From an uncultured Lachnospiraceae bacterium (GTDB taxonomy: Bacteria > Bacillota > Clostridia > Lachnospirales > Lachnospiraceae): a stretch of 63,666 nt of DNA. The position numbers and the translations under genes are program-made. Position 1 is the first letter of the stretch. Each line of letters starts with the position of its first letter. The notes under the pieces were generated by a model. That model was not told the origin of the DNA. It worked only from the letters and a program-made list of their open reading frames with translations, and made no database searches. Location of the stretch: positions 1-63,666 of the forward strand of contig CANRZW010000021.1 in NCBI GenBank assembly GCA_947644545.1. The letters are read 5' to 3'. Positions 34,222 to 50,029 of the stretch are shown piece by piece.

Positions 34222-34317
34222 TCAAATCAAACTTACAAAATCATTTGTCTGACCTACATCAACAATATAAACATTCCCATCATTTAAAGTTAGGCATTTT
34301 TCTCCTCCACTGCTCAC
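34222..34317 (-). other. 31-codon ORF overlapping the stop of the APS-kinase-like gene
   Basis: A GTG codon overlaps the TGA stop of the kinase gene (GTGA), an arrangement typical of coupled genes. The frame continues for 31 codons and its product includes KCLTLNDGNVYIVDVGQ and NDFVSLI before a TGA stop. The composition is protein-like (alternating hydrophobic strand, acidic and glycine turns), but I recognise no family. It could be a tiny coupled protein or the tail of a lost gene. It fills most of an otherwise empty 127-base gap. Confidence 0.3.
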
Positions 34318-34826
34318 TCAATATGGCAACACTGTAATATACACTCAGCCAGCTCCTCCGGTTTCCGGTCCCCATCATTCTTCAAAATCAAATCCGGACA
34401 CTTCGGTTCCTCAATCTCCATGTGGATCCCTACTACCCCTTTTTGTTTTTCCTCGCTTCTTCCACTGTACAGCCCTTTTTGATCTCTTTTCCTAAGCGTA
34501 TTCATAGAAACTTTTACATAAATCTCTCTATAATTCCGAATATTTTCCCGGTTCCATTTTCTTATACTGTCAAACATAGAGATGGTGCAACAAACCACAT
34601 TCATGTCCTGTTCTTGCAACATGGCACACAGTCTTGCATAACGCATTGCGCATTTTCTGCGATCCTCCTGATCGTACCCAAGGTCATCTCCAAACACTTT
34701 TCGCAATATATCACCATCGAGAAACACTGTATTAGGATAAATTCTTTTTATTTTCTCATAAAGTATTCTTCCAATCGTAGTTTTTCCTGCGCCGGAAAGA
34801 CCTGTAATCCAATATACTGTAGCCAT
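34314..34826 (-). CDS. APS-kinase-like protein, probable CDP-phosphoramidate kinase (Cj1415-like)
   Basis: A 170-residue P-loop kinase of the CysC fold: Walker A GLSGAGKTT (residues 9-17), FLDGD (35-39), and RDQKGLY (114-120). It departs from true APS kinase, seen at the C terminus of 47303-49129. The FISP motif is replaced by TISM, and the stretch KKARKGEIPNFTGI by an unrelated SGRSEEKQKGVVGI. In C. jejuni, Cj1415 is a CysC-like enzyme that phosphorylates the 3'-hydroxyl of CDP-phosphoramidate. The four other MeOPN enzyme families lie just upstream, so I assign that role by context. APS kinase activity is the fallback. Confidence 0.75.
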   Translation of the reverse strand: MATVYWITGLSGAGKTTIGRILYEKIKRIYPNTVFLDGDILRKVFGDDLGYDQEDRRKCAMRYARLCAMLQEQDMNVVCCTISMFDSIRKWNRENIRNYREIYVKVSMNTLRKRDQKGLYSGRSEEKQKGVVGIHMEIEEPKCPDLILKNDGDRKPEELAECILQCCHIE

Positions 34827-34844
34827 GTCTTTTTTACATTCCTC

Positions 34845-37343
34845 CTAAAATACGCTTTCCCATATACTCAACAGGCATCGTACTTCCTGTACTCTATACC
34901 TAAGATCATTTTGCAATGCTATTCTTCTATCCAGATCTAAACAATCTTTATAAAATCCGGTCCTGTCCCCCGGACGTTCAAAGTAAAACTCTTTTAAAAA
35001 CATTTCCTGCACTTCTCCTCTTGTAAACCAATCCGGCTCTACATACGCATATCCATATCTTTTTTGCCATATGGCATCAATAAGCATTATTTTTAACCTG
35101 TCAAATTCTGAAAAGAAATTGTCATATGTATTATATACAGGTTTTAAATCGAAACCGCTTACTCTCTGCATCGTATCACCATAAACATACTCCACCCCAT
35201 CCTTTGTAGTCTGCATCAATGTATCAGACCAAGGCACACCCCATCGTTCACAAATCTTCATCAACATTTCTTTTGGTTTACATTTCAAATCCTCAAATTT
35301 TATAATCAGCCTTTCGCTTTGCATATACTTCCTTTTATCAATCGGCATACGCCGTAAGACAGAACGATAAGCCGTTCTTACCCCTCCTTTTATACACTTG
35401 GTTTCTTTAAGAGTAGAACCCTTCTGAGGCACTGCATTTCGAACCACGTTTATAATATCGCAGGGCACATCTTCTGATTCCAGCCATTTGGCACATTCTT
35501 CTGTTTTATCTCTCTCCTGGAAATGCGGCTCCCAATATATTACTATACTGCGTAATTCATTTTCATTTATATTTTGTCCCTGCATAGATCTATAGGCAAT
35601 ATGAAACATGACAAATAATTCTTGAGATGTAAATCTATTGCTCTCCGCCAATAGTCTCTCCATCTTCTTTACAAATGCAGGCCTGTCTGTAATGCTCTCC
35701 TCGTTCCCTGCTATCAATTTCCAGAACAATGGCATAATATCTTCAGCACGTACCATCGACAAGCGCATACATATCCAAAACAGCTGATTATTTAAATCAC
35801 AATAATAAATACTTAATACAGTTGGGTGAGAATCTAATAACGATCTTAGAAAAATATTTCCATTATAAGGTAATATGGAACCAATCACTACTTTTTTCGG
35901 CATCAAATATTCTCTATGATATTTCATCTCATTATCCTGTTCCATATGAATAAAAGAAACTATATCCGAAAAATAATCTGTATAATTATCCAATCCCTTT
36001 TCCCTTAAAAACACAATGCGTTGATTTTTTTCCTCTTTTCCTGCAAGTCCTTCTTTAGCATCACTCCTATATATGGGCTCTATAAGGATACATATAGTAT
36101 CTTCATTAATATTATCTGCAAATACTTCCGGCATATTTTCCGGCTGTAAATCTTTTTGCAATGTTTGCAAATATCCTGTTGCCAGAATATCATTCTGCTT
36201 TAAGTATTCATATAACCTGCTGCACAAATAACAGTCTCCAGACAAAACAATCTTTGCATTTTTAAGAACATCAAGTAAATTATTTTCCGGTATCTCCACA
36301 TAGTCTTTCAATAGGATAAACCCTTCATTCCTTTTATATCCTATATAATCAAAGTAATCTACACTCCCAAGGCCCCACGCACTATATTGCGAAGTACAAT
36401 CAATAAATATCGGGGTGTGATATATCCTCGCAGCCTCACTTATCGTTATAATTTTTTTCCCGAACATCCTGTGCATGCATTCAACGTTTAATTCTTCTAC
36501 TGCAAAACAGCACGCTTCAATTCCATTTCCCATCAAAAAATCATACGCATCCTGTGACTTCTTATCTACCCCGCAAAGTATAATTTCTTTTTCTATCCGC
36601 AAATGTTCCAATAATGCACTACACTCTATATCCGCATTCTTAATCAAATTCCTTTTGAGATTAACTTCATAAATTTTATCTATACAGTCAAATTCTACAG
36701 AAACGCTTCTCAGCAGATTCTCCTTCCAGTCACGCGGTCTTTCCCATGTACCTTCTGCATATATATTCAAACATTCATATTCCGGTACCGGATTTTCTTC
36801 ACTATCAAAGAACTCCTGCCACATTCCGTCACTTACTTGAACCTGAATATACTGCTTTCTGAGATATTTTGCAAAAAAATATGCCAATTCATTAAACCCA
36901 TATATTTTCACACAAGTATATTCCGAAAACACATCTGCAAACTGTACTACTCCCTGTGTTTTTTCCAGTTCGCGTAACATACGAATTTCGCGATTGGCCT
37001 CTTCATCCTGATATGCAAAACAAACCAACTGATAATCCTTATCCAAAACCGGAAGCGGAAGCATATTCCGAATACCTCTACCTCGCTTTCTAAATATCTC
37101 TCTCGCAGTCAGCCATATATCCTTATCTAAGATTACATAATCTCTTACTATTGCAGCGTTAATAGATACCGCATCCAATAATGAATAATAGGTTATAATT
37201 CCAATAAAATCTTCTGCATCAGGACCATCATATACACATACAATCTCCGTTAAATGCCCCGACAAAAAATAAGAAAGAAGCCGCCCCCTATCCAGCAACT
37301 TGTATTCCACACATCCTACTTCACTATCACAGAATCTAATCAC
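34845..37343 (-). CDS. Large sulfotransferase-like protein; candidate O-methyl phosphoramidate transferase (paralogue 2)
   Basis: The product has 832 residues, colinear with the 25111-27612 protein from MIRFCDSEVGCVEY onward. The N-terminal region has Rossmann-like strands (VKIYGFNELAYFFAKYL, IVLSGDCYLCSRLYEYL). The C-terminal sulfotransferase-like domain shows VIGSILPYNGNIFLRSLLDSHP, IINVVRNAVPQ and LIIKFEDLKCKP. The 5'-loop has lost the usual SGTT serine and threonines (it reads NGNI), which argues against plain sulfate transfer. The gene sits between the cytidylyltransferase and the CDP-amidate kinase genes. A 3'-phospho-CDP-phosphoramidate donor would need just such a fold. Translation starts at GTG, and the paralogue confirms that start. 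Confidence 0.65.
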   Translation of the reverse strand: MIRFCDSEVGCVEYKLLDRGRLLSYFLSGHLTEIVCVYDGPDAEDFIGIITYYSLLDAVSINAAIVRDYVILDKDIWLTAREIFRKRGRGIRNMLPLPVLDKDYQLVCFAYQDEEANREIRMLRELEKTQGVVQFADVFSEYTCVKIYGFNELAYFFAKYLRKQYIQVQVSDGMWQEFFDSEENPVPEYECLNIYAEGTWERPRDWKENLLRSVSVEFDCIDKIYEVNLKRNLIKNADIECSALLEHLRIEKEIILCGVDKKSQDAYDFLMGNGIEACCFAVEELNVECMHRMFGKKIITISEAARIYHTPIFIDCTSQYSAWGLGSVDYFDYIGYKRNEGFILLKDYVEIPENNLLDVLKNAKIVLSGDCYLCSRLYEYLKQNDILATGYLQTLQKDLQPENMPEVFADNINEDTICILIEPIYRSDAKEGLAGKEEKNQRIVFLREKGLDNYTDYFSDIVSFIHMEQDNEMKYHREYLMPKKVVIGSILPYNGNIFLRSLLDSHPTVLSIYYCDLNNQLFWICMRLSMVRAEDIMPLFWKLIAGNEESITDRPAFVKKMERLLAESNRFTSQELFVMFHIAYRSMQGQNINENELRSIVIYWEPHFQERDKTEECAKWLESEDVPCDIINVVRNAVPQKGSTLKETKCIKGGVRTAYRSVLRRMPIDKRKYMQSERLIIKFEDLKCKPKEMLMKICERWGVPWSDTLMQTTKDGVEYVYGDTMQRVSGFDLKPVYNTYDNFFSEFDRLKIMLIDAIWQKRYGYAYVEPDWFTRGEVQEMFLKEFYFERPGDRTGFYKDCLDLDRRIALQNDLRYRVQEVRCLLSIWESVF

Positions 37344-37360
37344 GCTTATACAACCTCGCC

Positions 37361-38140
37361 TTAAGAAATTTGTGTCTCCACCACCTTCAAATCCTCACAA
37401 TCATCAATCTCAAACCAGCCTCTTTGTATATGTACTGCCCGCAGTTTACTCCCTGTATCAATTAGTCCCTGCAGCAGATCCGTCATATACATCTTCGCAT
37501 AAGCTCTGTCTGTCCGCCATAATACTTCCCCATTTGCACTTCTTCTCTCTGCTTCTTTACTAAGTTCCAACATTTTCTTCAAGCCTTCCCCTTTAAAACG
37601 CATCAGTCCAATATACTGAGACTGCACTTTTGCAAGTTCCGTCGTTTTTTGCCCAATCTCAGTCAGAAAATCCTCTGCATCAAACATCAACGTTTCTGCA
37701 TCATCCAGTGGATTCTCACACCGCTCAGACCAATACGCATACCACCCGTCATCCACAATCACCGACATAGTATCCTTAGCTGTCAGTATTTTCCTGAAAA
37801 CAGCTTCCTCATAAATAATATCACCATAAGATATGATAATGTCCTCTTCTGTCTCCATCATCTTTCTTGCACACATCAAGGAGCACACCATATTCGTTGA
37901 ATCATACTGTTCATTTACAACAAAACGAATCTGTGTATCCGCAAACCTTTTCCTTAGTACTTCACTACAATAACCACATATAATAGTGATGTCCTGATCC
38001 TGAATCCCGCAGACACGCATCGTATCAAGCTGTCTTTCAATAATACTCCGTCCATTAACTTCCACCATGCATTTCGGTCTGTCATCTGTTAATGGACGCA
38101 GCCGAGTTCCCTGCCCCGCCGCTAATATGATAACTTTCAT
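37361..38140 (-). CDS. Nucleotidyltransferase, probable CTP:phosphoglutamine cytidylyltransferase (Cj1416-like)
   Basis: The product has 259 residues in the LicC/RmlA-like nucleotidyltransferase family. The nucleotide loop is LAAGQGTRLRPLTDDRPKCM (residues 6-25) with the conserved lysine at 23. An ISYGDIIYEEAVF segment carries the metal-binding aspartate, and GWFEIDDCEDL lies at the end. By sequence alone it could activate phosphocholine or a sugar phosphate. Context points to the C. jejuni Cj1416 reaction, CTP plus L-glutamine phosphate to CDP-L-glutamine and pyrophosphate. Glutamine-kinase-like, CDP-glutamine-hydrolase-like and CDP-amidate-kinase-like genes surround it. The ATG at 38140 has GAGGAAAG upstream. 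Confidence 0.8.
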   Translation of the reverse strand: MKVIILAAGQGTRLRPLTDDRPKCMVEVNGRSIIERQLDTMRVCGIQDQDITIICGYCSEVLRKRFADTQIRFVVNEQYDSTNMVCSLMCARKMMETEEDIIISYGDIIYEEAVFRKILTAKDTMSVIVDDGWYAYWSERCENPLDDAETLMFDAEDFLTEIGQKTTELAKVQSQYIGLMRFKGEGLKKMLELSKEAERRSANGEVLWRTDRAYAKMYMTDLLQGLIDTGSKLRAVHIQRGWFEIDDCEDLKVVETQIS

Positions 38141-38170
38141 CACTCTTTCCTCTTTCTTGTTATAAACAAC

Positions 38171-38779
38171 TCATCCGAACAGTTCCCGTACCCTCTGTAC
38201 ATCCTCCATTCGAAATGGCTCTTCACGCTCCGGATGCCACATTGTAGCTAATACTGGCTTCTCTTTGTGTCGTATCGCCTCGATTACGCCATCTTCTGCC
38301 TGTGCAAGTACCGTTAACGAACTGACGGCTTTGCAGCACGCCTGATTGTGAAAACTGTTTACTTCCATCGTTCCCAATTTACCATGCACTTCATGCCGGA
38401 CTGCCACATGGCCCTGTATCTGCTCCAACTCACATCCGAAATAGTCTGCAATCACCTGCATTCCTCTACAGAAACCATAGGTCGGAATATCAAACTGTAG
38501 TGCAAGTTTAAGAAGTTCTCTCTCTACCTGATCTCTTTCCGGAGCATCGCCTCCATATTTCGTCAGACTGTTCCCCCCCGTCAGAACAAGCCCCACAGGC
38601 CGCAGCTGTTCCACCATATACTTTGTGATACTGGGTATGTTTGGCACAGGAACCGGCAAATATCCGCAAGCTTCTATAAAGCGGGCAATATTTTGATCAG
38701 CACAATCTCTTCTTTCTCCATAACCGCTCACGATCTCCACTCGCTGCGTATACAATATGATCTTTGCTTTTACAGACAT
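38171..38779 (-). CDS. Class I glutamine-amidotransferase-like hydrolase, probable gamma-glutamyl-CDP-amidate hydrolase (Cj1417-like)
   Basis: The product has 202 residues of the peptidase C26 / class I GATase fold. The oxyanion-side strand is GLVLTGGNSL, the nucleophile elbow YGFCRGMQ places Cys104, and the rest of the triad is in MWHPEREE (His182 and Glu184). The family includes gamma-glutamyl-GABA hydrolase. In C. jejuni the relative Cj1417 cuts CDP-L-glutamine to CDP-phosphoramidate and glutamate. No separate synthetase partner is present, which fits a free-standing hydrolase. The gene lies directly between the cytidylyltransferase gene and the methyltransferase gene. Confidence 0.82.
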   Translation of the reverse strand: MSVKAKIILYTQRVEIVSGYGERRDCADQNIARFIEACGYLPVPVPNIPSITKYMVEQLRPVGLVLTGGNSLTKYGGDAPERDQVERELLKLALQFDIPTYGFCRGMQVIADYFGCELEQIQGHVAVRHEVHGKLGTMEVNSFHNQACCKAVSSLTVLAQAEDGVIEAIRHKEKPVLATMWHPEREEPFRMEDVQRVRELFG

Positions 38780-38780
38780 A

Positions 38781-39530
38781 TTACTTCACCCGTGCCATCC
38801 AGATCCTTGTAGTATAAGGCACTTTAATATACTCTTGACCTTTCGCTTCAACTATTTTACGAATTTCTTCATTGATTGCATCAAATTTTTCCTGAGATTG
38901 ACGTTGTACTGTTCCATGCGATTTCCAACCTTCGATAAAATCCTTCGCAAGAATGTCATGTAGCACAGTCCCTTCAATATAAATCACTTCTCCAAACAAA
39001 CCGCTCTCATTGATGACTGCTGTCTGATCTTCACGTCTGGTTCCATAATTATAATCCGGGATCTCCCTTTTCAAAATATCTTCAATTTCTTTCTGCAAAG
39101 AATCCTCCAGATCTCTATGGTTCCACATACATGCAAACCAACCGTTGTTTTTTAGAATCCTTTTCGCTTCTGCCAGTGCCTCCTGTCGATTACATACGTT
39201 AAAAGAAGAACCAAATGTCACCAGATCAAATTTGTTTTCTTCCATTCCTGTATGTTCCCCAACACCTTCAAACCATTGAACTGTCTCAAAACTGCTTGTT
39301 CTGCGGATTCCATTTGCACGCATCGCGTCATTGGGTTCAACTGCACAGACATTCAATCCATACTCCGCTAATTTTAAAGTCAAATGTGCTGCTCCAGCCC
39401 CTACATCACATGCGTTATCCCCTTTTCTCACACCGGCTGTTTCCAGCATCCTGTCAATTGCATTCTGGGCATAATCCGGTCTTTTTAAATATGCCTCAGC
39501 TAATTCTGTGTAATCCCATTCTGTCTTCAT
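38781..39530 (-). CDS. SAM methyltransferase, probable phosphoramidate O-methyltransferase (Cj1419/Cj1420-like)
   Basis: The product has 249 residues of the class I fold: ACDVGAGAAHLTLKLAEYGL is motif I, CAVEPNDAMRANG holds the acidic residue that binds the ribose, and FDLVTFGSSFNVCNRQEAL follows. The C-terminal part ends with PYTTRIWMARVK. The MeOPN loci of Campylobacter carry one or two such methyltransferases (Cj1419, Cj1420) that are thought to methylate the phosphoramidate. Its position immediately before the hydrolase gene and after the glutamine kinase gene supports the same job here. The neighbours leave only one-base and about 30-base gaps. Confidence 0.8.
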   Translation of the reverse strand: MKTEWDYTELAEAYLKRPDYAQNAIDRMLETAGVRKGDNACDVGAGAAHLTLKLAEYGLNVCAVEPNDAMRANGIRRTSSFETVQWFEGVGEHTGMEENKFDLVTFGSSFNVCNRQEALAEAKRILKNNGWFACMWNHRDLEDSLQKEIEDILKREIPDYNYGTRREDQTAVINESGLFGEVIYIEGTVLHDILAKDFIEGWKSHGTVQRQSQEKFDAINEEIRKIVEAKGQEYIKVPYTTRIWMARVK

Positions 39531-39560
39531 GTCTACTAAATCCTTTCTTTAAATATACTT

Positions 39561-41954
39561 TTATTGTAATACTCTGACCAGTTTCCCGGCCGCATCAATC
39601 TCCACCATTTTGGCCTTCTTATACTCTCCGAAACTCTTTGCTCCCACACCCACCGCTGCAGGTATAGATAGCTCGCCCGCCCGGATCGCCATATGGGAAT
39701 TGGCTCCACCATACATGGTAATAAGCCCTTTGATCCCATGTGAAAAGATCCAATCATACCCCGGATCCGCGCTCGGTATCAATACAATCCGATCTTTCAA
39801 CTCTTCGGTAAAGCTTCCTTCATCCAGAACGCAGACTGTACCAACCGCCTGGTTTGTCGTAATATAATTTGGTTCTGAATCCGGATAATAGAACTGCATC
39901 GCATCTTCAGTCCGTATAATCATCGGCGGCAATGTGATAGATTGTGTCACTTCATAATCATTCTTACCCTGCTGCACAGAACGCCAAAAACTTGTCCGAA
40001 CATCTCCCGCCGATGCATAGAATCCACATATATCGTGAATATTTGCAAAAGCACAATCCTCTTTGGATATTCCTACTTCCTGTCCAAGTTCTCCAATCAG
40101 CCGAAGCGCCATGCTCAGATTACGGGTAAAAGCAAATTTCCCATATTCTCGCCCTTCAATAACTGTCTTAATAAAGTCCATCAATTCAAGTATATCATTG
40201 GTTAATCCATTTTCGATCAGTTTTCTTTTCAGTAAACTTAGCTGTTGAAGCGACAGCCGGAATTCCTCTCGTTTTTTGTTGCTGTCTTCTGCTTTCTCGC
40301 CTTTTCTATTCCATTCAAAGTATAACTCAGGCGCCTCATCATAGCGCAGGGAAATAATGTCATATGTTCCCGGACGCAAATGCCCGTATTTTCTTAAAAA
40401 AGCTTTCCTGGATAACTCTTCAAAATCGGCATTCATCTCAGAACTCACTGTATTAACGCCGCTCATAAACGACTCATAGTCCGCTTCATCAAGAATATTA
40501 CAAGTCACAAGAGAACGCAGAATCTGAACAGCGATAAATGCCGCTCTGGCCAATCCTGCAAATGGTAAGGTTCCATATCGCTTGCAGTCCTCAAGCAGCC
40601 AGTACACCTTCCCGATCTTCCCGAAATCACTCGCCATGATCTCGTCATAACGCTTATTTAATATCCCTATCTTATCATAATCTCTACGCCACAGTCCGTT
40701 CTTATGATCAATGATGTTGTTTGTCACATCGCGGAGCGCATCTATGATCTTCTCAATCTCTCCTTCTGTAAATCCATACTGCCTCAACACCTGTATCCGA
40801 TCCGGCAGGTCGAAAGTATAACAGGAGAAAACAATGTCAAATTCTGCCTTGTCATGTTTTGCTGGATTTTCAACCAGCCGATCCAGATAATAATTCACTA
40901 ACTTATCGCTGAGTTCTTCTTCCAGTCCAGCCGGAACAAAAGAATTGAAGCTGACTCTTACATCAATATAAGGCAGACCCCCGAAATCCACCATCAAGGG
41001 AAAACTTCGCAGATTACGATATCCATAATTATCCCTCTGATATGCCCACACACTGTCTGTAATAATTTCCCGGTAAAGCGACAACGCCAAAGGCTTTGGG
41101 CGAATACCGATCATCTCTGCCGGATTCCAGTCTGTCATAACACTATAGAGCGCTTTCTCGCCGCACAGAAACGGCTTCTTCCTCTGTGCCTGCCGTATTT
41201 TCTCCTCGATGCGCTCTAATTCTGACTGCTGCATCCTCCGATCCGCAGGCTGTCCCTGCACGCACAAAGCTCTTGTCTGCAGAATATACAACACGTCATC
41301 CCCGTCAAATGCAAACTCTACATCCAGATTCTCCTGTCCGAAGAACTCTTCTAGTTCCTGCAGCGCCCTGCACAGGCGATCCATCCTTTCCCCGGCTATA
41401 TCATTGCACTTATCAGTTTCCTTTTCTGTTTCTACACCATCCTGCAGTTTTTCCGGACTGACCGTCTTAAACCGATAATACAGCCTGCTTTCTGTACCCT
41501 GTCCGGATGTGATCGCAGACGTGGAACCTTTCTCATCATAATTAATCACATAGTAATTCCCCATAGTGTTCGGATCCAACGTAAATGCAACGCCACAAAT
41601 CTTTACATCAGCAAGCATAGGCTGCACCAGTATCTGATTCGCTGCATTATCATCATCATATGATTCAATCACCATCTCTACAGCATTCTGAAAGGCTTCC
41701 TCGCCGCATACATTGGCAATCGATTCATACTTTCCCGCCTGAGAACTATCGTTTGTGTCTTCCGCCAGAGAACTGCTTCGCACGATCACTTTTTTCTTCC
41801 ATTCCAATGCCAGATAGTTCTTCTTAATCCGCTCCGGATCTGCTGCCCACTCAGCTGCAGTGAACGTATATTGCGGCAAAACCTGTGCGTATTTTAGCTT
41901 CTGATATAATTTTTGCAGTGTCTCCGCTTTGGTGCCCAGTTTCTCCCTGCTCAT
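39561..41954 (-). CDS. PEP-synthase-like phosphotransferase, probable L-glutamine kinase (Cj1418-like)
   Basis: The product has 797 residues. The N-terminal third is an ATP-grasp domain of the PEP synthase type (VIVRSSSLAEDTNDSSQAGK, residues 56-75; later EFAFDGDDVLYILQTRAL). The C-terminal swivelling domain holds the phospho-histidine in MYGGANSHMAIRAGELSIPAAVG (His754). The middle differs from PEP synthase and pyruvate phosphate dikinase: no PEP/pyruvate TIM barrel is present. Relatives with this plan phosphorylate small molecules. Cj1418 of C. jejuni converts L-glutamine and ATP to L-glutamine phosphate, AMP and phosphate. The remaining MeOPN enzymes follow at once, so this is the likely first step. 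A hairpin with a T-run precedes its GAGG ribosome site. Confidence 0.82.
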   Translation of the reverse strand: MSREKLGTKAETLQKLYQKLKYAQVLPQYTFTAAEWAADPERIKKNYLALEWKKKVIVRSSSLAEDTNDSSQAGKYESIANVCGEEAFQNAVEMVIESYDDDNAANQILVQPMLADVKICGVAFTLDPNTMGNYYVINYDEKGSTSAITSGQGTESRLYYRFKTVSPEKLQDGVETEKETDKCNDIAGERMDRLCRALQELEEFFGQENLDVEFAFDGDDVLYILQTRALCVQGQPADRRMQQSELERIEEKIRQAQRKKPFLCGEKALYSVMTDWNPAEMIGIRPKPLALSLYREIITDSVWAYQRDNYGYRNLRSFPLMVDFGGLPYIDVRVSFNSFVPAGLEEELSDKLVNYYLDRLVENPAKHDKAEFDIVFSCYTFDLPDRIQVLRQYGFTEGEIEKIIDALRDVTNNIIDHKNGLWRRDYDKIGILNKRYDEIMASDFGKIGKVYWLLEDCKRYGTLPFAGLARAAFIAVQILRSLVTCNILDEADYESFMSGVNTVSSEMNADFEELSRKAFLRKYGHLRPGTYDIISLRYDEAPELYFEWNRKGEKAEDSNKKREEFRLSLQQLSLLKRKLIENGLTNDILELMDFIKTVIEGREYGKFAFTRNLSMALRLIGELGQEVGISKEDCAFANIHDICGFYASAGDVRTSFWRSVQQGKNDYEVTQSITLPPMIIRTEDAMQFYYPDSEPNYITTNQAVGTVCVLDEGSFTEELKDRIVLIPSADPGYDWIFSHGIKGLITMYGGANSHMAIRAGELSIPAAVGVGAKSFGEYKKAKMVEIDAAGKLVRVLQ

Positions 41955-42093: not shown

Positions 42094-43086
42094 TTAGATT
42101 GAGTCTGGTGGCAAATTTGATAATGCAAGCTTCGATTTCGCATCCTTATACTCTTCCACCGTTACTCCCAGGCCATCGCATACTTCCTGCAGCGAAAGCC
42201 CAAAGTTTCTTATCGCCAAGTCTACATTCCTAACTAATGTTTGTCTGGTTCCCTGTTCTATTCCCTTTTCTATTCCCAGTTCCATTCCCTGCTCTATTCC
42301 CAGTTCCATTCCCCTCTGCATACCTCTTTCCAGTCCGATCTCAAGAATACCCATCTTCACAACCTCCCATTCTTCTGACTTCTTTACTTCCTCAACGATT
42401 CTGTCCAGATCCAGGATTCTCTCATCCATTACTGCGATATCAGGATTTGTAAGTGTAGTATGTTTCATATACTGCAGCATGCTGACCAGTTCCTGCCTGC
42501 CGTTCTTGCTCGTCATATTGAGAAAAATCTTAGTCGCACCATCTTCTAACAGCAGATCTGCATCTTCTGCACATTGCTCTCTGAATGTATACATCGCCCG
42601 ATCTCTCTTGAAAATATCTTCCTGTGTAATAAATATAATTACTGTCGAGGGCAGATGTTTATAGCGAGTCTTTTTTCCCGATTTAAGGATTGGCGTATCA
42701 ATCAGACTCTGGTAAAATCTGGAACGCCTGCGGACATCATCTCCACTTGCATCATTCTGCATTTCCATATCAAACTGCCTGTCGTATACGTCCTGCGCCC
42801 ACGCATCCAGACGTATGGCACGTTTCCCGGATCTGTTCAGAATAACCTCCTCCACCCTGACTTCCTTGAGTTTCAGTTCCGGCTCATTCAGAATAATACT
42901 GAGTACATCGGTATAAGCCTCCTTCACTTTCATCACCGATAAGAAAAGTGCAAAATCACTTAGGTTAAGCTCAAATTCCTCCGGGCGCGTCCTGCCTGCA
43001 TCATTCACATGTGCCGTACCGCGTTCTTCCGTTACGAGCCCTGTTCCCTGTACTTGTGTTGTCTTATACTTTTTCTTCTGCTGCAT
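42094..43086 (-). CDS. Rpn-family PD-(D/E)XK recombination-promoting nuclease / putative transposase
   Basis: About 330 residues. The nuclease core is visible as IRLDAWAQDVYDRQFDMEMQ (D, then ExQ), with RRRSRFYQSLID after it and VIIFITQEDIF further on, the standard Rpn/PDDEXK_2 layout. The C-terminal part has a repetitive E-x-G pattern (GMQRGMELGIEQGMELGIEK), which is common in this family. Members cut DNA and promote recombination; they are multicopy in many Firmicutes. I start at the ATG at 43086 with AGAGG seven bases upstream; the longer frame begins with TTG and lacks a site. It marks the upstream border of the glycan island, and a truncated relative marks the other end. Confidence 0.85.
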   Translation of the reverse strand: MQQKKKYKTTQVQGTGLVTEERGTAHVNDAGRTRPEEFELNLSDFALFLSVMKVKEAYTDVLSIILNEPELKLKEVRVEEVILNRSGKRAIRLDAWAQDVYDRQFDMEMQNDASGDDVRRRSRFYQSLIDTPILKSGKKTRYKHLPSTVIIFITQEDIFKRDRAMYTFREQCAEDADLLLEDGATKIFLNMTSKNGRQELVSMLQYMKHTTLTNPDIAVMDERILDLDRIVEEVKKSEEWEVVKMGILEIGLERGMQRGMELGIEQGMELGIEKGIEQGTRQTLVRNVDLAIRNFGLSLQEVCDGLGVTVEEYKDAKSKLALSNLPPDSI

Positions 43087-43151
43087 ATCATACCTCTCTT
43101 TCTTTACACAGGCAGAGAGGCATGATCCGGTCAATTCCCACCGTTGTTCTT

Positions 43152-43444: not shown

Positions 43445-44191
43445 TTATTCAACCCTTCTTACCGCCATCAAAGCCTCAAACCGCTCTGCATCCACGAAAT
43501 CTGCCACAAACTCCGTCTGCGGATGTCTGCAGACTTCCTCCGGTGTGCCAATCTGCTCTATCCTTCCCTGATTAGTAATGATGATGGTATCAGCCACCTC
43601 CACAGCCTCTTCCTGATCGTGCGTCACGAAGATACTGGTCACGCCCACTCTTCCGATCATTTCCTTCAGCCATGTCCGCAGTTCCCTGCGCACCTTGGCG
43701 TCAATTGCCGCAAAAGGCTCATCCAGCAGCAGAAGCTGCGGATCAGGCGCCAACGCACGGGCAAATGCCACCCTCTGACGCTGTCCTCCGGAAAGCTGAT
43801 GGGGATACCGCTTCCCGAGATCCTGCATGGAGACCAGCTCCAGTAGCTCTTCCACTCTATCCTTTATTTCCTTTTTATTCTTTTTCTGCACTTCCAGACC
43901 AAAGGCAATGTTATCCGCCACCGTCATATACCGAAACAGCGCATAATTCTGGAAGACGAAACCGATCCCTCTCTTACTCCCCGGTATATCATTCACTCTG
44001 TTTCCATTGATCAGAATATCGCCCGAATCCGGTCTGTCCAGGCCGGCGATCATCCGCAGTATCGTCGTCTTACCGCTTCCGCTCGGACCAAGCAATGCCG
44101 CCAGATGTCCTTTCTGCACCCCGAAGTTCACATCTTTGGATGCCTGAAAACCGTCAAACGTCTTATTGATCCGTCTCATTTCCACATACAT
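43445..44191 (-). CDS. cysA: Sulfate/thiosulfate ABC transporter ATP-binding protein CysA
   Basis: The 248-residue ATPase has Walker A GPSGSGKTT (residues 35-43), the signature LSGGQRQRVAFARAL, Walker B LLLLDEPFAAID and the switch histidine in FVTHDQ. It matches the CysA/PotA-like family but is shorter than the usual 330-360 residues, because the C-terminal regulatory domain is largely missing. It powers import through CysT and CysW, encoded just upstream. Operon position after the sulfate-binding lipoprotein and permeases makes sulfate the likely substrate. The start has GAGGG upstream. Confidence 0.88.
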   Translation of the reverse strand: MYVEMRRINKTFDGFQASKDVNFGVQKGHLAALLGPSGSGKTTILRMIAGLDRPDSGDILINGNRVNDIPGSKRGIGFVFQNYALFRYMTVADNIAFGLEVQKKNKKEIKDRVEELLELVSMQDLGKRYPHQLSGGQRQRVAFARALAPDPQLLLLDEPFAAIDAKVRRELRTWLKEMIGRVGVTSIFVTHDQEEAVEVADTIIITNQGRIEQIGTPEEVCRHPQTEFVADFVDAERFEALMAVRRVE

Positions 44192-44299
44192 TGCCGTTCC
44201 CTCTTCTTACACAAACTATTTCATACCATTCCATCATGACTTCTTGTCCTGTTACCGCTCTTTGTCCTAAGCGCTTCCACAAATCCGGTCTGTACCAAA

Positions 44300-45190
44300 T
44301 CAAATCTTTCTTTTTCTCTCAATAAAGCTTCTGATGATTAAGATTACAACAGCCATAATAACGAGAATCGATGACACCGCAAAAGCGGCCGTCGTATTAA
44401 ACTCATTATACAATATCTCCACATGAAGCGGCAGCGTATTTGTCTTCCCCCGCAGGTGGCCGGATATGACAGATACCGCCCCGAATTCTCCCATCGCACG
44501 CGCCGTACACAGGACAACGCCATAGACCAATGCCCATTTGATATGCGGAAACGTAATCCTGCGAAAGATCATCAGTCCGCCTGCACCCATCAGGGCCGCT
44601 GCCTCTTCCTCGTCTTTTCCCTGCGCATTCATAACCGGAAAAAGTTCTCGGAACACAAAGGGAAACGTGACAAAAATCGTTGCCAGTATGACACCCGGCA
44701 CGGCAAAGACAATCTTAATATCATGTGCTTTCAGGAAATCACCCATCCATCCAATATTGCCAAACGTTAATATGAAGATCAGGCCGGCAATGACCGGAGA
44801 GATCGAGAAAGGAATATCGATCAGTGATGCCAGAACCTGCCGTCCCCTGAAATAGAATTTGGACAGAAGATAAGACGCAAATACGCCAAAGATTGTATTC
44901 ACCGCCACGGCACATACCGTTGCAAACAATGTCAGCTGCAGAGCTCTCACCGTATATTCATCCATAACCGCTTCTTTATATGCCTGCCAGCCGTCCCGCA
45001 GTGCATTTATGAGCACAACGGTCAACGGCATAATAAGCATAACCAGCAGAAACACCGCTGCAATGCCTATCAGAATATATTTTATTGCATGATCCGCATC
45101 ATCCCTGTGCGGTTCGATCACCTTCCTGATCGAATGAATATCATCGCCTACAATATCGTGTTGATAGCTATGCTCTACCTGATCTTGCAT
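44300..45190 (-). CDS. cysW: Sulfate ABC transporter permease CysW
   Basis: About 296 residues with six predicted membrane helices, starting with IKYILIGIAAVFLLVMLIMPLTVVLI. The permease EAA-type loop is EEEAAALMGAGGLMIFRRITFPHIKWAL, and ARAMGEFGAVSVISGH is the usual CysW segment. With CysT it forms the membrane channel of the sulfate importer. A hydrophilic N-terminal extension of about 35 residues precedes the first helix. I choose the second of two adjacent ATG codons, six bases after GGGAG; the first, at 45193, is nearly as good. Confidence 0.88.
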   Translation of the reverse strand: MQDQVEHSYQHDIVGDDIHSIRKVIEPHRDDADHAIKYILIGIAAVFLLVMLIMPLTVVLINALRDGWQAYKEAVMDEYTVRALQLTLFATVCAVAVNTIFGVFASYLLSKFYFRGRQVLASLIDIPFSISPVIAGLIFILTFGNIGWMGDFLKAHDIKIVFAVPGVILATIFVTFPFVFRELFPVMNAQGKDEEEAAALMGAGGLMIFRRITFPHIKWALVYGVVLCTARAMGEFGAVSVISGHLRGKTNTLPLHVEILYNEFNTTAAFAVSSILVIMAVVILIIRSFIERKRKI

Positions 45191-45281
45191 CATAATCTCC
45201 CATTCTAACGCAGCCTGCTTAACCTGGTATTTCCCCAAATCAATCTTCGGGGCAATCCCCCGTCTTCCTTCCCATACCGCA

Positions 45282-46133
45282 TTATGTCCTGCTGAATTTC
45301 TGCATATAAATCTGTACAGAATTAATTATAAGCATCACCACAAAAGAAACCAGCAGCAGCACAAACGCAATTGCCGTCGCATCCTCATATTTATACTGCT
45401 CTAACTTTGCCATAATAAGCAGTGGTGCAATCTGTGTCTTATAAGGAATGTTCCCGGCTATAAACACTACGCTTCCGTATTCTCCGATTCCTCTGGCAAA
45501 GGCAAGTCCGAACCCGGCAATCAATGCCGGGAAGAGTTCCGGCAGAATCACCTTGAAAAAGATGCGCGCCCGGCCGGCCCCCAGCATCATGGCTGCCTCT
45601 TCGTACTGTCTGTCCAGCTTCGCCAAAACAGGCTGCACCGTTCTCACCACAAAGGGAATCCCCACAAATACCATGGCAATCGTGATACCGATCCGCGTAT
45701 AGGCAATCTTAATACCCGCCTTATCAAAAAGAGAACCTATCCATCCCTGATCAGAATAAAGATAGGTCAAAGAAATACCCGCCACCGCAGTGGGCAGTGC
45801 AAACGGAAGTTCGATAATCCCGTCCATTAGCCTTTTCCCCGGAAATTCATAGCGAACCAGAACCCAGGCAAGGATCATTCCAAACAACGCATTCACAAGC
45901 GCGGCGGCAAAAGCACAGGAAAAACTGACGATATAACCGGAAACGATCTGCCGGGATGCGATCACATCCACGAATCCCCGTAAACCCAATCTTCCTGCAC
46001 TGACAAAAACGGATGCCAGCGGAATCAACACGAGCACGCTGAGCATTGAAAGCGTCACCCCAAACGAAAGCCCAAAACCGGGTATCACCCTGACACCACG
46101 CTTATTCTTCACCTTAACAATCTGCTGTTCCAT
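45282..46133 (-). CDS. cysT: Sulfate ABC transporter permease CysT
   Basis: The product has 283 residues with six membrane helices (GLSFGVTLSMLSVLVLIPLASVFV is the first). The EAA loop is YEEAAMMLGAGRARIFFKVILPELFPAL, followed by FARGIGEYGSVVFIAGN, all as in CysT/CysU. It pairs with CysW downstream. AGGAG lies nine bases before the ATG. The gene order, binding protein, CysT, CysW, CysA, is the classical one. Confidence 0.9.
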   Translation of the reverse strand: MEQQIVKVKNKRGVRVIPGFGLSFGVTLSMLSVLVLIPLASVFVSAGRLGLRGFVDVIASRQIVSGYIVSFSCAFAAALVNALFGMILAWVLVRYEFPGKRLMDGIIELPFALPTAVAGISLTYLYSDQGWIGSLFDKAGIKIAYTRIGITIAMVFVGIPFVVRTVQPVLAKLDRQYEEAAMMLGAGRARIFFKVILPELFPALIAGFGLAFARGIGEYGSVVFIAGNIPYKTQIAPLLIMAKLEQYKYEDATAIAFVLLLVSFVVMLIINSVQIYMQKFSRT

Positions 46134-46159
46134 AAATCACAGCTCCTTATATTATCCTG

Positions 46160-47215
46160 CTATTCCTCATAAATCTGGTCGAAGATCGCCCCGTCTTCAA
46201 AGTAAACCCGATAAGCCTCATCCCAGCCGCCAAAATCATCAATCGTAACCAGATTCATATCCAGATCAAACTGTCCAGAAAGCTCCTGCAGGATCGTCTC
46301 TTTAGACGGCCGGTAGTAGTTTTCTCCTGCCAGTCTCTGTGCCTCATCGCTGTACAAATATTCCAGATAAGCTTCGGCCGCTTCCCTCGTTCCATGATCG
46401 TCAACGTTGCTGTCAACGACCGCCACCGAAGGCTGTGCCAGAATACTGACGCTGGGCGTGATGATCTCATACTGATCCGGATATTCTTTCATTGCCAGAT
46501 AAGCCTCATTCTCCCAGGCGATCAGCACATCTCCCTGCCCATTCTCCACGAAAGTGTTCGTCGCGCCTCTTGCACCGGAATCCAGAACCAACACGTTCTG
46601 ATAAAGCTTCTTCATAAACTCTCTTGTCACATCTTCATCATTACCGTCCTGCTCCTGCTGATACGCCCACGCCGCAAGGAAATTCCAGCACGCGCCGCCG
46701 GATGTCTTCGGATTCGGAGTGATAACTTCCACACCGTCCTTGATCAGATCATTCCAATCCTGTATATTCTTCTCGTTTCCCTTATGTACCAGGAATACGA
46801 TCGTTGAGGTGTAGGGCGCGCTGTTACTGTCAAACTCTCCGATCCACCCGCTCTCGATCAACCCCGCTTCTTCGATCGCCGTTACATCATGAGCAAGCGC
46901 CAGCGTTACCACATCGGCCTCATTTCCCTCAATCACCGATCTGGCCTGAGAGCCGGAACCTCCGTGAGACTGTGTTACACTGATCTCCTGCCCGCTCTGC
47001 TCCTTCCAATATTCACTGAACATTTGATTATATGCCGCGTAAAACTCACGAGTCGGGTCGTAAGAAACATTCAGAAGTTCCACCTTCTCCCGATTACCGT
47101 CACCGCTGCCCGAAGCTCCTGTCTCATTGCCGCCGCACCCTGTCAGCACAGTCATGGAGACTACAGTCAAAACCACCAGAATCCTACTACATAAATTCAT
47201 CTTTTTTTGTCTCAT
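46160..47215 (-). CDS. sbp: Sulfate-binding lipoprotein (Sbp/CysP family)
   Basis: About 351 residues. A lipoprotein signal peptide ends in the lipobox LTGC, so the protein should be anchored outside the membrane. The mature part matches the sulfate/thiosulfate-binding family: LLNVSYDPTREFYAAYN, VTQSHGGSGSQARSVIEG, ADVVTLALAHDV, and later NPKTSGGACWNFLAAWAY and GARGATNTFVENGQGDVLIAWENEA. It delivers sulfate to CysT/CysW. I start at the ATG at 47215, which gives a proper signal peptide; the ribosome site is weak and a start five codons later is possible. Confidence 0.88.
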   Translation of the reverse strand: MRQKKMNLCSRILVVLTVVSMTVLTGCGGNETGASGSGDGNREKVELLNVSYDPTREFYAAYNQMFSEYWKEQSGQEISVTQSHGGSGSQARSVIEGNEADVVTLALAHDVTAIEEAGLIESGWIGEFDSNSAPYTSTIVFLVHKGNEKNIQDWNDLIKDGVEVITPNPKTSGGACWNFLAAWAYQQEQDGNDEDVTREFMKKLYQNVLVLDSGARGATNTFVENGQGDVLIAWENEAYLAMKEYPDQYEIITPSVSILAQPSVAVVDSNVDDHGTREAAEAYLEYLYSDEAQRLAGENYYRPSKETILQELSGQFDLDMNLVTIDDFGGWDEAYRVYFEDGAIFDQIYEE

Positions 47216-47302
47216 TCCACTTATTATCCTTACCTTATCATATTGCATTATGCAGTCTGCCGTAAAGCCCGCATTCCCGCGCCCTGGCATTCATTGATTA
47301 CA

Positions 47303-49129
47303 TCAGCCATCCGCCATATCCAGTTTCTCGATCATAAGAGTGACTGCCTCTTCCAGATCCATCTTTTGCGTATCGATCACCAGATCGGGCGCTGATGGTG
47401 CTTCATAGGGACTGGAAATTCCGGTAAAATTAGGGATCTCTCCTTTTCGTGCCTTCTTATACAGTCCTTTTACATCCCGTCTCTCACACTCTGCCAGCGA
47501 TGTGCTGACATATACCTCGAAGAAGTCTTCCCCGATGATATCCCTGGCGTTCTCTCTGTCTTTCCGATACGGAGAAATAAACGCCGTCAGCACGATCAGC
47601 CCTGCATCATTCATCAGTTTGGCCACCTCGGCGATCCTTCTGATGTTCTCCACCCTGTCTACTTCCGTAAATCCGAGATTCCTGTTTAAGCCCATGCGGA
47701 TGTTATCCCCGTCTAACAACATCGTATGCTTACCCATAGCCACCAGTCTCTTCTCCAGGGCATTGGCAAGCGTGGATTTTCCTGAGCCGGACAACCCGGT
47801 GAACCATATGGTTTTCGTAGTCTGATTCTTCTGTTCCGCACGAATCTGTTTCGTAATATCCGTCTCCTGCCATACCAGATTATCAGAGCGGCGCAGTGTA
47901 TGTTCAACCGTACCGCAGGCAGAGGTCATGTTCGTCACTCTGTTGACAAAGATAAAGCTTCCTAAGTCCTTACTGTTCTCAAAGGCGTCAACCACACATT
48001 TCTCCGACAACATGATATCGCATACGGCCAGCTCATTCTTATAAAGCTGCTCGGCCGGAAGCTGGTCTCCACTGTTAACGTCAATCCTGTATTTAATGTC
48101 CATCACGGATGCCGGAAGCAGCCTGGTTCCCAGTTTGATCCAGTAATTTCTTCCTGGCACCAGACTCTCATCATCCATCCACAACAGATTCGCCGTAAAC
48201 AGATTCGCAGATTTCATGGATGCGCTCTTGCAGATAACACAACCCCTGGAGATGTCAATCTCCCGATCCAGCTGGATTGTCACCGGCTGTCCGGCCTGCG
48301 CAGATTCCTTCTTTAGATCCGTTACATAGATCTCTGCCACCTTAGCATGTTCATGGCTTGGCAGCACGGTGATCTCGTCACCGACGCAAACTTCTCCGGC
48401 GCTGATCTGTCCCTGAAATCCCCGGAAACTGTGGTTAGGCCTGCTGACTCTCTGGATCGCCATCACAAACCCATCCTCGGCAGCCAGCCCCGTTATCTCA
48501 ATATTTTCCAGATAGGTCAGCAAAGTCGTACCATGATACCACGGCATCGCGGAGGAGCCGCCTGTAATATTATCCCCTTCCGTAGCGGATACCGGTATCA
48601 TCTGTATGCTCGCTATTTCAAATTCACTTACAAACCGCTTGACTTCCTTTGCAATCTTGTCATAGATGCCCTTGTCGTAATGTACCAGATCCATCTTGTT
48701 GATCGCAAAAACAAAATGCCTGATTCCCATCAGAGAACAGATGCGGATATGTCTTCTCGTCTGGATCAGCATCCCCTGCGTCGCATCGATGAGGATTACC
48801 GCTACATCGGCAAAAGAAGCGCCCACCGCCATATTCCTTGTGTATTCTTCATGTCCCGGCGTATCCGCCACGATGAAGCTTCTCTTCTCCGTAGTAAAAT
48901 ACCGGTATGCCACGTCGATCGTAATTCCCTGTTCCCGTTCGGCCATCAATCCGTCCAGCAGCAGAGAATAATCGATCTTTCCTTCCCGGCTCCCAATCTT
49001 ACTGTCCAGCTCCAGCGCTTTCTCCTGATCCGCAAATATCAGTTTTGCATCATACAGCATATGTCCGATCAAGGTAGATTTCCCGTCGTCCACACTGCCG
49101 CAGGTGATAAATTTCAACAAGCTCTTCAT
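47303..49129 (-). CDS. cysNC: CysN/CysC fusion: sulfate adenylyltransferase GTPase subunit with APS kinase
   Basis: The product has 608 residues. The N-terminal 430 are the CysN GTPase with G1 CGSVDDGKST (residues 10-19), DTPGH (89-93) and NKMD (144-147), followed by two beta-barrel domains. From residue 438 a complete APS kinase follows: Walker A GLSGSGKS (445-452), LLDGDNIR, FISPYR (517-522) and the KGLYKKAR...FTGI block near 554-571. With CysD it makes APS from sulfate and ATP, and its own kinase domain makes PAPS. No APS/PAPS reductase is in the window, so PAPS may serve the sulfotransferase at 27688-28587. It abuts the CysD gene. Confidence 0.93.
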   Translation of the reverse strand: MKSLLKFITCGSVDDGKSTLIGHMLYDAKLIFADQEKALELDSKIGSREGKIDYSLLLDGLMAEREQGITIDVAYRYFTTEKRSFIVADTPGHEEYTRNMAVGASFADVAVILIDATQGMLIQTRRHIRICSLMGIRHFVFAINKMDLVHYDKGIYDKIAKEVKRFVSEFEIASIQMIPVSATEGDNITGGSSAMPWYHGTTLLTYLENIEITGLAAEDGFVMAIQRVSRPNHSFRGFQGQISAGEVCVGDEITVLPSHEHAKVAEIYVTDLKKESAQAGQPVTIQLDREIDISRGCVICKSASMKSANLFTANLLWMDDESLVPGRNYWIKLGTRLLPASVMDIKYRIDVNSGDQLPAEQLYKNELAVCDIMLSEKCVVDAFENSKDLGSFIFVNRVTNMTSACGTVEHTLRRSDNLVWQETDITKQIRAEQKNQTTKTIWFTGLSGSGKSTLANALEKRLVAMGKHTMLLDGDNIRMGLNRNLGFTEVDRVENIRRIAEVAKLMNDAGLIVLTAFISPYRKDRENARDIIGEDFFEVYVSTSLAECERRDVKGLYKKARKGEIPNFTGISSPYEAPSAPDLVIDTQKMDLEEAVTLMIEKLDMADG

Positions 49130-50029
49130 TTAGAAATATCCCTCTCTCTTGCGTCTTTCCATGCTTCCGGCCGCCTCGTGATCGATTACTCTGCTGGTAC
49201 GCTCCGAGGTGATCGCCTGCAACGTCTCCTCTATGATCGCATCCAGCGTATCCGCCTCGGACTCGACGCCGCCGGTCAGAGGATAACACCCCAATGTCCG
49301 AAAACGCACCTTCTTCCACTCTACTTTCTCACCCTGTCCAAGCTGCATCCTGTCATCATCTACCATGATAATATTGCCGTCCCGGTATACCACCGGTCTT
49401 TCTTTCGCATAGTAAAGCGGCACGATCTCTATTCTCTCCTGACGGATATACTGCCAGATATCCTTTTCCGTCCAGTTTGACAGAGGGAAGATCCGGATGG
49501 ATTCGCCCTTTCTGATCTTCGTATTATAAAGTTTCCACATCTCCGGTCTCTGGTTCTTGGGATCCCATGCATGCTGCGCATTCCGGAAAGAGAAAATCCT
49601 CTCTTTCGCCCGGGATTTCTCCTCATCCCGCCTTCCGCCGCCAAAAGCAGCCGTAAACCCATACTGATCCAGGGCCTGTTTCAGCGCCTGTGTCTTCATG
49701 ATATCCGTATAGGCAGAACCATGGTCAAAGGGATTGATCCCGTCTCTTACTCCTTCTTCATTGGTATAGACCAACATCTCTATGCCAAGTTTCTTAGCCG
49801 TCTGATCACGAAAAGCAATCATCTCCTGAAACTTCCAGGTAGTATCAATATGCAGAAAGGGAAACGGCGGCTTCTCCGGGTAAAAGGCTTTGAGCGCCAG
49901 GTGCAGCATGACCGAACTGTCCTTGCCAATCGAATAGAGCATCACCGGCTTCTCACATTCGGCTGCCACTTCCCTCATAATATAGATCGCTTCCGCTTCC
50001 AATTGTTCCAAATGAGTCAACTCTCTCAT
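49130..50029 (-). CDS. cysD: Sulfate adenylyltransferase subunit 2 (CysD)
   Basis: The product has 299 residues of the PP-loop family. The loop is [11 protein letters not shown] (residues 31-41), followed by [16 protein letters not shown] and the conserved [14 protein letters not shown] block. The [19 protein letters not shown] and GYF segments complete the pattern. It adenylates sulfate together with the CysN part of the next gene. It is the first gene of the sulfate operon; the 156 bases before it show no leader RNA that I recognise. A GGGAG lies very close to the ATG. Confidence 0.93.

Follow-up and report, generated by a model that had tools for sequence, protein, structure and literature searches.

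In Campylobacter jejuni, genes of the Cj1415-Cj1422 type encode the O-methyl phosphoramidate (MeOPN) capsule pathway, whose enzyme names we take from titles and passages of the literature. A passage of a 2019 review describes P-N-tagged sugars as identified so far only in Campylobacter (PMC6429109), a passage of a 2022 review terms the kinase C. jejuni-specific (PMC9561416), and the phosphoramidate tag is described in another text passage as a phage receptor in Campylobacter (PMC5808241). Here we analyze contig CANRZW010000021.1 of an uncultured Lachnospiraceae bacterium (phylum Bacillota), a stretch of 63,666 nucleotides referred to as the window, in which five of a block of six open reading frames (ORFs) on the minus strand (34314-41954) are relatives of genes of this pathway. 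We put at roughly 80% the probability that this block is a phosphoramidate core related to the Campylobacter pathway, making an activated phosphoramidate. No published account of this finding was seen in the open-access literature searched, although enzyme papers from the Raushel group may mention wider homologues.

The block runs from a glutamine kinase gene through genes for a methyltransferase, an amidase, a nucleotidyltransferase and an 832-aa protein to a CysC-like gene (Table 1), with intergenic gaps of 30, 1, 27, 17 and 18 bases. A first-pass annotation, made from the sequence alone, had placed five of these ORFs on the minus strand, and reading of the ORFs bears out those positions; the nucleotidyltransferase ORF, given as 37361-38140, extends to 38143, as it opens with GTG-ATG and its first ATG lies at 38140. 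The five were described as consecutive. They do form a tight same-strand run, but the 832-aa ORF precedes the CysC-like gene, and in this protein a likely transferase had been overlooked. For comparison, Campylobacter genomes were gathered with a genus 16S primer scan, and the glutamine kinase model NF004508 was matched above its cut-off in 7 of the 11 examined. Six Campylobacter regions show the order methyltransferases, kinase, amidase, nucleotidyltransferase, with a CysC-like gene in four of them.

Computation establishes the family and clade of the kinase. It scores 931 bits against NF004508/PRK05849 (cut-off 501) versus 75 bits or less for other NCBIfam models, and is 40-42% identical to five Campylobacter kinases by blastp; a sixth aligns as two pieces (43% and 32%). 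The blastp table covers 20 loci, with L030 left out, and the kinase and amidase alignments and trees are without L031 and L033. In the kinase tree, 20 NF004508 rows, including the window and Campylobacter, lie on one side of a 100/100 branch, opposite E. coli PpsA and five other phosphoenolpyruvate (PEP)-utilising enzymes. Twenty-four positions are invariant across this clade, where each of the six outgroup enzymes has either another residue or no aligned one, and H754, which we take to be the phosphohistidine, is invariant in 20/20 rows. The clade and its specific positions lead us to reject a PEP synthase or rifampin phosphotransferase identity, the latter being an unrelated clade against which the first-pass annotation had proposed to check its reading. 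Of a capped set of 7998 protein-database candidates that were scored, at least 7397 are kinase relatives at E 0.001; the best 120 were listed and stand outside the trees, and the few that are named are Lachnospiraceae.

The amidase likewise belongs with its Campylobacter counterparts, to which it is 30-36% identical (blastp). Nineteen rows, including the Campylobacter amidases, separate at 97/94 from five outgroup proteins; one of these is E. coli PuuD, a gamma-glutamyl-GABA hydrolase of the sort also raised in the earlier work. C104, H182 and E184 are invariant in 19/19 rows; however, all but one of the 19 invariant residues are shared with one outgroup or more. The weight therefore lies with the clade, and signature residues were dropped as family markers. 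The best NCBIfam model is NF045546 (gamma-glutamyl-CDP-amidate hydrolase), on which the window's amidase scores 121 bits and that of C. jejuni 414 scores 327. As the former is below the cut-off of 250, the protein is predicted to act in this way without being filed as an equivalog. The nucleotidyltransferase is 35-40% identical (blastp) to six Campylobacter relatives across residues ~2-254, versus a match to LicC, another suggested unrelated clade, over residues 2-132; this comparison is one of alignment span, without a tree. Its T83-N84-M85 is invariant in 19/19 rows. For L025 and L026, the amidases and one of the nucleotidyltransferases were taken from record annotation.

The earlier reading had also called the candidate MeOPN cassette complete. 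For methylation that goes too far, as the window encodes one methyltransferase versus two in Campylobacter. Across the six Campylobacter regions, it is 38-43% identical to first-type and 31-36% to second-type methyltransferases. A second one is absent from its own genome, where a relative's second-type gene matches only the same methyltransferase (35%).

The CysC-like protein shares the PF01583 domain and the P-loop with CysC, the adenosine 5'-phosphosulfate (APS) kinase. It scores 189 bits on NF004041/PRK05541 (cut-off 127) and 111 on apsK, below 138.7; the C. jejuni 414 protein reaches 271 on NF004041. Identity to four Campylobacter Cj1415-type genes is 39-47% (blastp); between those four and the window's CysNC it is 31-36%. 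A 99/95 branch separates 14 rows, including the window and Campylobacter, from seven that include E. coli CysC and the window's CysNC. The motif [TA][IV]SM[FW] occurs in 12/12 CysC-like rows labelled as kinase-linked and in 0/9 others; the window's protein carries it, followed by an N, versus ISP[YH] and an R in CysNC and E. coli CysC. The G013 gene adjoins a glutamine kinase yet groups with CysC and does not have the motif, which is thus present in 12 of 13 linked rows. The remaining two of the 14 (L084, L087) read TIAM for TISM, are fused to a methyltransferase and are not beside a glutamine kinase. From branch and motif, we predict that the window's gene is of Cj1415 type rather than an APS kinase. 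Fusions of this sort, a 385-aa kinase with TIAM plus a methyltransferase, lie at L107:9484-13404 (G008), where a 916-aa member of the 832-aa family follows, and at L087:1492-2649 (G017), in a genome in which no full glutamine kinase was found.

Within the window's genus, the kinase is above cut-off in 6/25 genomes; G034, from the same taxonomic order, also has it. An APS-kinase-family gene is present in 6/6 of the genus carriers versus 2/19 non-carriers (Fisher 0.00016, not corrected for kinship). CysD turned up in just one of seven Bacillota carriers, G000, and PF01747 in 0/7; completeness is 67% for G008, 83% for G010, 100% for G013, 81% for G014 and 99% for G023. Given Campylobacter-type CysC-like genes without CysD or PF01747 in G008, G010, G014 and G023, the CysC-like kinase is unlikely to make 3'-phosphoadenosine 5'-phosphosulfate (PAPS) there. 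One caveat is that PF01747 is present in 7/7 Campylobacter genomes tested, so the argument from a lack of ATP-sulfurylase fails for that genus. A sulfation role for the CysC-like gene is disfavoured by its tree, by its motif and by sister genomes that lack ATP-sulfurylase.

For the transfer step, the candidate is the 832-aa protein. Modelling places a sulfotransferase fold in its C-terminal part, although the protein has no Pfam match, sulfotransferase models included, and its 833-aa paralogue scores 20.8 bits on Sulfotransfer_3, under the cut-off of 27. A lysine in the 5'-phosphosulfate-binding loop is typical of sulfotransferases. In the 832-aa family, the loop contains a lysine or arginine in 5 of 86 rows (84 of 120 listed relatives plus the window's two proteins; listed relative P0135 is probably the 833-aa protein itself), and in the Campylobacter DUF2972 family in 0/33 (33 of 120 listed relatives, 20 of the 33 being under 90% alike). 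A search for DUF2972 as the local transferase gave no candidate, with matches in 0/41 relatives, the window's own genome included, and in 6/11 Campylobacter genomes as a positive control. A profile comparison detected no homology between the two families, so that only fold and loop connect them. Where relatives of the 832-aa protein carry a name, as a few do, they belong to Lachnospiraceae; the family is missing in 2/6 genus carriers. On balance we lean slightly towards the 832-aa family being the phosphoramidate transferase. By eye, the N-terminal part of a CysC-like fusion from Azospirillum (L025) resembled a sulfotransferase, but it matched neither a family nor a PDB entry and was not used.

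From these assignments we infer the following reactions. The nucleotidyltransferase would couple phosphoglutamine to cytidine monophosphate from cytidine triphosphate, the amidase would strip glutamate to leave cytidine diphosphate (CDP)-amidate, and the CysC-like kinase would phosphorylate its 3'-hydroxyl. The methyltransferase may O-methylate the phosphoramidate. The sulfotransferase domain of the 832-aa protein and its paralogue would bind the 3'-phospho-nucleotide and pass its phosphoramidoyl group on to a sugar, by analogy with sulfate transfer by PAPS-dependent sulfotransferases. The acceptor would be a cell-surface glycan, probably flagellin-linked; flagellin is a candidate carrier from its position only.

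Gene grouping of this kind extends beyond the genus. In a plasmid collection, the kinase matched 19 records, 14 of them covering at least 80% of the query, and kinase, amidase and nucleotidyltransferase lie close together in 6/8 plasmid records examined: two from Azospirillum, and those of Pseudohalocynthiibacter, Vibrio alfacsensis, Deltaproteobacteria Smac51 and Agrobacterium vitis. In Azospirillum TSA2s, the kinase is ~3 kb off on the opposite strand. The triad was not seen in the Cupriavidus (annotation incomplete) or Microvirga plasmid records. A CysC-like gene and a methyltransferase accompany it in the two Azospirillum plasmids and in Smac51. Recurrence of the triad in Campylobacter, other Bacillota and Proteobacteria indicates that the grouping is more than chance. 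Our phylum and class samples are too sparse for a distribution (kinase 1/398, the window's own genome; amidase 2/291, that genome and G034).

Several of these loci show variant architectures. In G034 (L078:2834-6652), a 926-aa kinase has an extra N-terminal domain that is cytidylyltransferase-like by eye, with the amidase and nucleotidyltransferase next; the sulfotransferase before it scores 31.8 bits on PF13469 and has a loop, GYFGTGSS, without lysine, and the genome gave no APS-kinase-family match at 1e-15. Kinase ORFs of Pseudohalocynthiibacter (L027:8275-11373) and Vibrio (L028:8353-11340) match the nucleotidyltransferase at 20-23% identity, and a fused nucleotidyltransferase-like domain is possible. 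An unverified phage contig from human faeces (L033:652-3687) carries a 1011-aa ORF with glutamine-kinase-like and amidase-like parts. On the Agrobacterium vitis plasmid (L032:8908-13997), the kinase, amidase and nucleotidyltransferase genes are joined by genes for a LysE transporter and a CDP-alcohol phosphatidyltransferase; neither a CysC-like gene nor a methyltransferase was seen, and the product is perhaps a different phosphoramidate.

Table 1. Features of the window discussed in the text
Feature	Coordinates	Strand	Remarks
Glutamine kinase (Cj1418 type, NF004508/PRK05849), 797 aa	39561-41954	-	PF01326 + PF00391
S-adenosylmethionine (SAM) methyltransferase, 249 aa	38781-39530	-	PF08241; nearer Cj1419 than Cj1420 type
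C26-type amidase, predicted gamma-glutamyl-CDP-amidate hydrolase, 202 aa	38171-38779	-	PF07722; C104, H182, E184
CTP-type nucleotidyltransferase, predicted phosphoglutamine cytidylyltransferase, 260 aa	37361-38143	-	PF12804/PF00483
Predicted phosphoramidate transferase, 832 aa	34845-37343	-	C-terminal sulfotransferase fold, 473-768
CysC-like kinase, predicted CDP-amidate 3'-kinase, 170 aa	34314-34826	-	PF01583; stretch TISMFDSIRKWNR
Paralogue, second predicted transferase, 833 aa	25111-27612	-	61% identity to 832-aa protein
Ordinary sulfotransferase, 299 aa	27688-28587	-	PF00685, 72.4 bits; loop lysine (GFQKSGTT); outside proposed pathway
PD-(D/E)XK transposase-like ORF	42094-43134		PF12784; directly upstream of block
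Genes for sulfate-type ABC transport and for sulfate activation	43445-50029		upstream of block
CysNC + CysD	47303-50029	-	sulfate activation; CysNC with own APS kinase domain, contrast for CysC-like gene
Flagellin, 462 aa	51720-53108	-	PF00669, PF00700; ~10 kb from block

Downstream of the block lie glycosyltransferases, a sulfotransferase, aminotransferases and the 833-aa paralogue. G+C content is 44-52% at 38-62 kb versus 32-38% at 20-38 kb, the shift falling within the block. A promoter and terminator scan gave no excess over shuffled sequences. Elsewhere, a 541-aa protein (window:7568-9193) without a Pfam match resembles RmlA-type nucleotidyltransferases over residues 325-434 (54 bits, far below the cut-off).

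The strongest competitor shares the core, so that its probability overlaps with that of our reading, and departs from it at the end of the pathway: the product would be unmethylated, another polymer or small molecule would be tagged, or the transferase would lie outside the 832-aa family. The single methyltransferase speaks for this, as do the missing 832-aa family in two genus carriers, the triads with neither CysC-like gene nor methyltransferase in the stretch examined (Vibrio, Pseudohalocynthiibacter, Agrobacterium vitis, G034) and the CDP-alcohol phosphatidyltransferase gene adjoining the A. vitis triad. The window's block, though, includes both a CysC-like gene and a Cj1419-like methyltransferase and sits in a glycan island with glycosyltransferases, and we regard such an outcome as unlikely, if less so than the two alternatives that follow.

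It is decidedly improbable that the CysC-like kinase and the 832- and 833-aa proteins serve glycan sulfation, together with the ordinary sulfotransferase, CysDNC and the sulfate transporter, leaving only kinase, amidase and nucleotidyltransferase to phosphoramidate chemistry. The nearby sulfate genes, the predicted sulfotransferase fold and the APS-kinase annotation of CysC-like proteins fit such a division, but CysNC already brings its own APS kinase domain, the tree puts the CysC-like gene on the Campylobacter side, and G008, G010 and G023 (67, 83 and 99% complete) have CysC-like and 832-aa family genes with no CysD or ATP-sulfurylase match. Moreover, the loop lysine, almost always missing in the 832-aa family, is present in the neighbouring ordinary sulfotransferase. 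Still less credible is a kinase of unrelated, PEP-synthase-like or rifampin-phosphotransferase-like function, in a cluster brought together by a chance meeting of common families. Shared PPDK_N and PEP-utilizers domains, along with PEP synthase and Rph models that match weakly, are outweighed by the NF004508 score, the clade and its 24 positions, the same partner genes beside the kinase in three distant groups and the single ORF joining kinase and amidase in L033.

Families, clades and grouping thus favour the first-pass view that a Campylobacter-like route is encoded here. The enzyme set extends to Bacillota, and the triads extend to Proteobacteria. A reason can also be offered for the puzzling 3'-phosphorylation: the 3'-phosphate may be a PAPS-like handle for transferases of sulfotransferase fold. 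On this view, transfer is open to a direct test in vitro. We give about even odds to a broader proposal, namely a second sulfation-like chemistry in which a CysC-descended kinase 3'-phosphorylates CDP-amidate, and sulfotransferase-fold enzymes without the loop lysine (DUF2972, the 832-aa family) read the 3'-phosphate and tag surface glycans, here yielding phosphoramidate-tagged flagellin. As the tag is a phage receptor in Campylobacter, in other bacteria it may likewise influence phage and host recognition.

Compared with PAPS-dependent sulfotransferases (tyrosylprotein, curacin-type and heparan), the 832-aa family has a long N-terminal part and, in 81 of 86 rows, neither lysine nor arginine in the loop; the window's member also has no Pfam match. 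With the C. jejuni MeOPN pathway, the window shares clustered kinase, amidase, nucleotidyltransferase, Cj1419-like methyltransferase and CysC-like kinase genes at 30-47% identity. It differs in that the methyltransferase sits between kinase and amidase, the 832-aa gene lies between nucleotidyltransferase and CysC-like kinase, there is one methyltransferase rather than two and no DUF2972 transferase, and the block belongs to an island with a flagellin gene. Judged from sequence, the system appears to be the Campylobacter core with a different transferase family, in a different phylum.

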